Part shown: positions 7,612-9,062 of the stretch, piece by piece
How the letters are laid out: each line of letters starts with the position of its first letter
How positions within the stretch are numbered: the first letter of the stretch is position 1
NCBI GenBank assembly: GCA_026989455.1
Contig: JALSJH010000079.1
Coordinates: forward strand, 1 to 60,929
Direction of reading: 5' to 3'
DNA from: Chromatiales bacterium
GTDB lineage: Bacteria > Pseudomonadota > Gammaproteobacteria > RBG-16-57-12
Length of the DNA stretch: 60,929 nt
The notes under the pieces: model-generated
Told to the model about the DNA's origin: nothing
The model's database searches: none
Seen by the model: only the letters and a program-made list of their open reading frames with translations
Program-made: the position numbers and the translations under genes

Positions 7612-8478
7612 ATGATCAGCAGCATGACCGCCTTTGCGCGCAGTGAAGCTCACACACCCCAGGGAGAGCTCATCTGGGAAATAAGGTCGGTTAACCAACG
7701 TCACCTTGATTGCCAACTCCGCCTTGCTGATGAATTTCGTCTCTTTGAACCCAAAATACGAGCACGCATCAACCGCCTTCTGAAGCGAGGGAAAATAGAG
7801 TGTCAGCTGCGTTTCCAGGCCAGCACCCCGGAGGAGGGTGGGTTTTCAATTAATGAGCCCCTGGCTCGACAACTGGCACACGCCAGCCGCACCGTGGATG
7901 GCTTTCTATATAGCCCGTCCCCTGTCAGCTCTCTTGAAGTAATGAAGTGGCCGGGGGTGCTGCAAGTTACACCGCTCGACCTTGAGCCACTTGAAGCCAC
8001 CGCAATAGCACTACTAGATCAAGCGCTGCAACAACTGGTTGAAAATCGTCAGCGGGAGGGGAGCAGCCTGCAACAACTGATTGAGCAGCGCGCTGATGGC
8101 ATTCAACAGCAGCTCGACTTGATTCGTCAGCGGATGCCGCAAGTCCGCAGTGCCATCAAAGACCGCCTACAACAAAAGCTAGCTGAACTGAGTGAGGTGT
8201 TTGATAATAACCGCCTCGAGCAGGAGGTGCTGTTACTGGTACAGAAGAGTGATATTGATGAGGAGTTGGACCGTCTTGAGGCGCATCTTAAGGAGGTTGC
8301 TCATATTTTCGCCAAAGGCGGTCTCTGTGGTCGCCGACTCGATTTCCTGATGCAGGAGTTCAACCGCGAAGCCAATACCATTGCCTCAAAGTCAGTGGAT
8401 ACAGAGATCACCCGCGCCGCACTCGAGCTTAAAGTGCTGATTGAACAAGCTCGCGAGCAGATACAAAATATAGAGTAA
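7612..8478 (+). CDS. yicC: YicC family endoribonuclease
   Basis: 288 residues, matching the YicC/YloC family length. The start MISSMTAFARSE and the region WEIRSVNQRHLD are family hallmarks, as is the C-terminal segment GRRLDFLMQEFNREANTIASK. YicC-like proteins are described as endoribonucleases or RNase adaptors. The ATG at 7612 is chosen because GAGG lies close upstream and it matches the family; a GTG at 7561 would add 17 unrelated residues. Divergent from the kinase-phosphatase operon. Confidence 0.92.
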   Translation: MISSMTAFARSEAHTPQGELIWEIRSVNQRHLDCQLRLADEFRLFEPKIRARINRLLKRGKIECQLRFQASTPEEGGFSINEPLARQLAHASRTVDGFLYSPSPVSSLEVMKWPGVLQVTPLDLEPLEATAIALLDQALQQLVENRQREGSSLQQLIEQRADGIQQQLDLIRQRMPQVRSAIKDRLQQKLAELSEVFDNNRLEQEVLLLVQKSDIDEELDRLEAHLKEVAHIFAKGGLCGRRLDFLMQEFNREANTIASKSVDTEITRAALELKVLIEQAREQIQNIE

Positions 8479-8494: not shown

Positions 8495-8530
8495 AAAACC
8501 CCCGCCAAAAGTAATATTTGACGGGGGTTT
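8495..8530 (-). terminator. Intrinsic terminator of the 42-residue peptide gene (probably bidirectional)
   Basis: The arms AAACCCCCG and CGGGGGTTT, extended by CAAA/TTTG after one mismatch, close a short loop. On the minus strand the stem is followed by TTTTTT, a good intrinsic terminator 18 bases after the peptide stop codon. It could also end yicC transcripts from the other side, where only three Ts follow. Confidence 0.8.
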
Positions 8531-8547
8531 AAACGGAAACAACCCGC

Positions 8548-8676
8548 TTAGTGATTATTTATCAGCTCACTCTCAGTACTGACGGTTTTGGTAATCAGTC
8601 CCATTATTATAATAACCAGCGGCAGTATGGTGAAAAAAGCTACAATCCCATAAAAGGGTATAGTCAGGTGTTCCAT
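8548..8676 (-). CDS. Small single-pass membrane protein, 42 residues, unknown function
   Basis: An ORF of 42 codons on the minus strand starts MEHLTIPFYGIV and continues through a hydrophobic stretch (about residues 6-28, FFTILPLVIIIMGLI) to a polar tail TVSTESELINNH. AGAGAGGA lies about eight bases upstream of the ATG, a promoter-like pair (TTGGGC, 17-bp spacer, TATATA) lies at 8699-8727, and a T-tailed terminator follows the stop. Complete transcription and translation signals make it a credible gene although short. I do not recognise the family. It resembles in size the small membrane subunits that accompany oxidases or transporters, but no partner gene is adjacent. Confidence 0.65.
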   Translation of the reverse strand: MEHLTIPFYGIVAFFTILPLVIIIMGLITKTVSTESELINNH

Positions 8677-8698
8677 GGCAACGATCCTCTCTCTAGTA

Positions 8699-8727
8699 TA
8701 TATAGTTATAATGAGAGCTTTGCCCAA
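8699..8727 (-). promoter_or_regulatory. Probable sigma-70 promoter of the 42-residue peptide gene
   Basis: On the minus strand, -35 TTGGGC (8722-8727), a 17-bp spacer and -10 TATATA (8699-8704), 22 bases before the ATG. The -35 matches consensus at three of six positions and the -10 at five of six. Confidence 0.5.
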
Positions 8728-9062
8728 TTCATATTTCCCGCTCCAGCGGCGTTAAAAAGAGCCCCAAAATCCTCATTTACTCCAGTAAACTCCGGTTTTT
8801 CGACCATTTTTTCCTTGCTGGAACGAAAACTATTTCTCGTGCAAAGCCCTCATAATATTATACCGGTCGCCAATGACAGGATCCCCATAACCCTTTTTTG
8901 CCACTCGCGTTCAGACCGGATGAATCGAATCTAGTCGCTTTCTTGAGTGGTGTCCATACATTTCAACCCCCAATTTGCAATATTGATAAAAATAGTCAAT
9001 CTTTATCTATCTCATTGTCTTTTAAGACAAAAGATACCAGTGTCTATAGAGTTTAAGATGCC
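8728..9062. other. Intergenic stretch without a recognisable gene
   Basis: About 335 bases between the small membrane peptide promoter and the end of bioA. An open frame on the plus strand across 8551-8934 has no ribosome-binding site and no protein-like pattern. A short AT-rich palindrome, TTGTC-N6-GACAA near 9016-9031, lies beyond bioA and could be a weak transcript end. Nothing else is supported. Confidence 0.5.

Follow-up and report, generated by a model that had tools for sequence, protein, structure and literature searches.

A candidate small membrane protein gene between yicC and bioA, conserved in three species of one genus of Chromatiales

Organization of the locus

The window analysed here is a stretch of 60,929 nucleotides from a Chromatiales bacterium (contig JALSJH010000079.1), and the feature of interest is a short frame on its minus strand. 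The coding sequence (8548–8676, minus) runs from ATG to TAA, with codons at 8676–8551 and the stop at 8550–8548, and encodes the 42-residue peptide MEHLTIPFYGIVAFFTILPLVIIIMGLITKTVSTESELINNH. An earlier note, made from the sequence alone, had described a short minus-strand frame between yicC and bioA, and it was confirmed at these positions. The upstream neighbour is bioA (10409–9063, minus), whose product is a class III aminotransferase. On the other side yicC, on the plus strand, ends at 8478 and its product carries YicC domains. The locus was compared in the genome of the window (G000) and in both other species of the genus, G001 (a metagenome-assembled gammaproteobacterium, isolate MC-02; contig JAFLJP010000024.1) and G002. 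Translation probably starts at the ATG at 8676, because an extension of the frame to a TTG, which would give 59 amino acids, is interrupted by an in-frame stop in G002. The ribosome-binding site that the earlier note had reported is AGAGAGGA (8685–8692, minus), located 8 nt 5' of the ATG; AGAGAGAGGAT is kept in all three genomes.

The frame is followed by an intrinsic terminator (8496–8530, minus) that consists of a 14-pair stem, a 7-nt loop and a T tail, and is found in all three genomes. A T-tailed terminator had been placed 18 bases after the stop; the terminator is indeed present, and the distance is 17 bases. In the three-way alignment a C-G pair of the stem is replaced by T-A in G001, and pairing is kept. 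In this same genome yicC is not adjacent to the peptide gene, and different, convergent genes lie there instead. Despite the changed neighbour, the ribosome-binding site, the frame and the terminator are all retained. Since the frame and the terminator are kept where yicC is not adjacent, and the stem stays paired, the terminator is assigned to the peptide gene.

Further upstream, a promoter scan gives a conserved promoter candidate, TGGACA-N17-TAGATT (8928–8956, minus); all three genomes share its two hexamers and the 17-nt spacing without change. Next to it is a conserved 5' leader of 68 nt (8860–8927, minus), recognized from the alignment and from folding z-scores, which is able to fold as a long hairpin. 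Promoter and leader together show 75% identity to G001 versus 61% for the stretch just upstream, and 94% versus 80% to G002. The core of the leader is nearly invariant (AAAGGGTT.TGGGGATCCTG). The folding z-scores of the leader in the three genomes are -2.3, -1.9 and -1.0, 59 of 60 pair cells contain a standard pair, and three pairs are changed on both sides. This covariation is no proof of structure, because when the same ten transitions are placed at random, the main helix keeps all nine of its pairs in 60% of trials. The hairpin was accordingly rejected as a proven RNA structure, pair retention being not beyond chance given the types of substitution, and is best described as a possible fold. 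No match to the leader was found in Rfam, and a covariance model of the leader gave confident matches only in the three congeners. Weak matches to this model occur elsewhere, and no small membrane frame was seen after them (one locus is incomplete). The leader also holds a tiny frame (8888–8850, minus), which reads MGILSLATGIIL in the window and MGILSLAAGIIL in G002. In G001 this frame has a GTG start and overruns the stop, so that its length is not kept, and it was set aside as probably due to chance.

Between the leader and the ribosome-binding site lies a MITE of 139 bp (8713–8851, minus) with 11-bp inverted ends (GAGGGCTTTGC / GCAAAGCTCTC) and an ATTAT target duplication. The three-way alignment shows that this element is missing from the corresponding site in both congeners. 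Matches to it number about 29 in the genome of the window, 40 in G001 and 10 in G002, many of them partial, and the family's other genus gave no convincing match. Judged from the alignment, the element is an insertion in the lineage of the window that split an ancestral promoter and leader from the gene. Its position suggests that expression of the gene in this species may have been altered, and either the old promoter or the junction of the MITE may now drive it. The element also bears on the promoter-like pair of the earlier note, TTGGGC-N17-TATATA (8699–8727, minus), whose -35 hexamer is within the MITE and whose -10 hexamer is outside. The pair exists; as the conserved promoter of the gene it does not hold up, being weak, not listed by the promoter scan, and dependent for its -35 hexamer on a species-specific element. 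The conserved promoter is ~230 bases upstream of this pair, with the MITE between it and the gene. The locus offers a natural experiment: in one species, a MITE has come between the gene and its conserved promoter and leader.

Conservation and distribution of the frame

A frame of 42 codons means little by itself, since chance alone can produce one. The peptide is single-copy in the genome of the window, and both congeners keep the frame unbroken, with an identity over the 42 residues of 93% in G002 and 83% in G001. In both, the gene lies 3' of bioA on the same strand. In G003 (86% complete), from the family's only other genus, bioA is present but the peptide was not found. Changes within the hydrophobic helix are mostly conservative (I6V, I23V, I24A and I28V, plus G10T), and the others fall at residues 39–41. 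The polar tail KTVSTESEL and proline 19 are invariant in all three species.

The window and G001 differ by 34 substitutions, 21 of which are at third codon positions. They cause 7 amino-acid changes, whereas 20.8 ± 2.1 are expected under random placement, and none of 20,000 random-placement trials matched this result with the frame intact. The closer G002 differs by 10 substitutions, which change 3 amino acids where 7.2 changes are expected (p = 0.001). When the same substitutions are placed at random, the frame is disrupted in 31–59% of trials. The bias toward sparing amino acids, which the earlier note had proposed to look for, is therefore present in both pairs of this comparison of just three species. 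The frame is unbroken in the relatives, and conservation is not limited to the terminator, the codons being conserved as well in a protein-coding pattern. Because the substitutions spare amino acids far beyond random placement, the frame is taken to be protein-coding; by this pattern it is a genuine gene, kept under selection in three related bacteria. The dN/dS ratio between the window and G002 is 0.18 by NG86 and 0.16 by YN00. Between the window and G001 it is 0.07 and 0.14, with dS near saturation for this more distant pair. The values for bioA, given for scale, are 0.014 and 0.033 for the same two pairs. Purifying constraint on the peptide is clear, but weaker than that on bioA.

Profile searches of 369 genomes of the class and 398 of the phylum gave no convincing relative, with only weak matches beyond the genus. 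Those out-of-genus matches that were read proved to be pieces of longer proteins or parts of different frames. The peptide has no match in Pfam, NCBIfam, PADLOC, PDB chains, plasmids or phages; the sole PHROG match is weak (E 0.07), and a match on a viral contig covers 16 residues of another frame. 'Genus-restricted' is used here in the sense of not detectable elsewhere, because short profiles lose power fast.

The best match outside the genus (locus L069, minus strand) falls in the last helix of a multi-helix membrane protein of 140 amino acids from one distant gammaproteobacterium. It is ungapped, with 15 of 29 residues identical (GVVAFF...GVITKAVS), and has an E-value of 6e-4 in the one genome, corresponding to about 0.2 expected over 398 genomes. 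Roughly one such match would be expected by chance across several surveys of this kind, and it is treated as a lead and not as a relative. The 140-residue protein itself has no Pfam or PHROG match, and matches NCBIfam only at chance level. From the resemblance, its last helix is a possible origin of the peptide.

The predicted protein and its possible role

The product is predicted to be a protein with one membrane-spanning helix, at about residues 6–29, and a polar C-terminal tail. There is one hydrophobic stretch, with a Kyte-Doolittle 19-residue mean of 2.79, and AlphaFold2 models a single helix over residues 5–40 (mean pLDDT 86) that is unbroken. The hydrophobic helix and polar C-terminus of the earlier note are supported by both predictions. 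With 42 residues and a predicted membrane helix, the peptide is within the usual definition of small membrane proteins (about 50 residues or fewer and a membrane helix), and it belongs to this known kind. It represents one more well-supported orphan gene under the usual size limits of gene callers, and a small membrane protein under purifying selection yet limited to one genus, as far as this can be searched. Those bacterial members that are well studied work mostly by entering larger membrane complexes (PMC11539335).

Several roles can be weighed against what is seen at the locus. That the conservation reflects an RNA constraint, with the frame accidental to a non-coding RNA, is scarcely credible: conservation and foldability of leader and terminator would fit it, but the substitutions track codons (21 of 34 at third positions, and 7 amino-acid changes versus 20.8 expected, against G001). 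Size, hydrophobicity and a foldable leader would also fit a small hydrophobic type I toxin, similar to TisB or Hok, which would depolarize the membrane and be controlled by an antisense RNA or by the structure of its leader. However, the gene is a single syntenic copy under purifying selection, and for this reason a toxin is quite improbable. There is also no match to a Pfam toxin family, the peptide is absent from plasmids and phages, and Rfam antitoxin families score only at chance level, on the terminator.

By size and topology the peptide could be a subunit, like CydX, KdpF or CcoQ, of a complex that serves respiration or conserves energy in another way, and subunits of this type are often missed and diverge quickly. 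Like CydX, a subunit of cytochrome bd oxidase, it has a single helix and a similar length. CydX carries a YxxWxxG motif (PMC4325964), whereas this motif is lacking in the peptide, none of the three proteins contains a tryptophan, and the gene is not in a cydAB operon. The potassium pump subunit KdpF is likewise a tiny hydrophobic helix, but its profile gives no match. CydA and KdpA are both absent from all four genomes of the family, which excludes the CydX and KdpF roles. With no Pfam or NCBIfam match and a gene located outside any oxidase operon, this type of subunit is unlikely. A stress-induced protein of the YohP type, which would need no specific partner and act directly on the membrane, is rather unlikely. 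The peptide resembles such orphan small membrane proteins in having a stand-alone gene and no evident partner, and the gene carries a promoter and a leader of its own and shows no linkage to a complex; no sequence relation to YohP was found, however, and the tail KTVSTESEL, polar and invariant, suggests that the peptide makes a specific contact. It is doubtful, though conceivable, that the gene is a new family of small membrane proteins that arose within the one genus, and whose synthesis is controlled by an undescribed structured RNA leader (8927–8860, minus) without an Rfam match.

The reading that we favour, with a probability of roughly 0.6, is that the gene is genuine and apparently confined to this genus, has expression signals of its own, and encodes a small membrane protein that most likely serves as an accessory or regulatory subunit for a larger protein of the inner membrane. 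In such a subunit, the helix would sit beside the larger protein and would change its activity or stability, by analogy with the action of AcrZ on AcrB. Both the binding and any regulatory role are inferred, and any protein of the inner membrane could be the partner. It counts against this reading that no partner gene is linked: the products of both neighbours, bioA and yicC, are enzymes that belong to other pathways, and in G001 yicC is not adjacent.

AcrZ of Escherichia coli (PF10766), the accessory helix of the RND pump AcrB, is similar to the peptide in length, in its one membrane helix and in its internal proline. A bend at P16 is needed for AcrZ to bind AcrB (PMC7267776), whereas the modelled helix of the peptide is continuous, and there is no sequence relation past hydrophobicity. 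Membership of the AcrZ family was rejected, since the PF10766 profile has no match over its cut-off in the genus. Each genome of the genus has five or more RND pump genes, and because such pumps are common their presence is uninformative about AcrZ membership. An AcrZ-like role on an RND pump is possible by analogy, the invariant proline 19 being the parallel.
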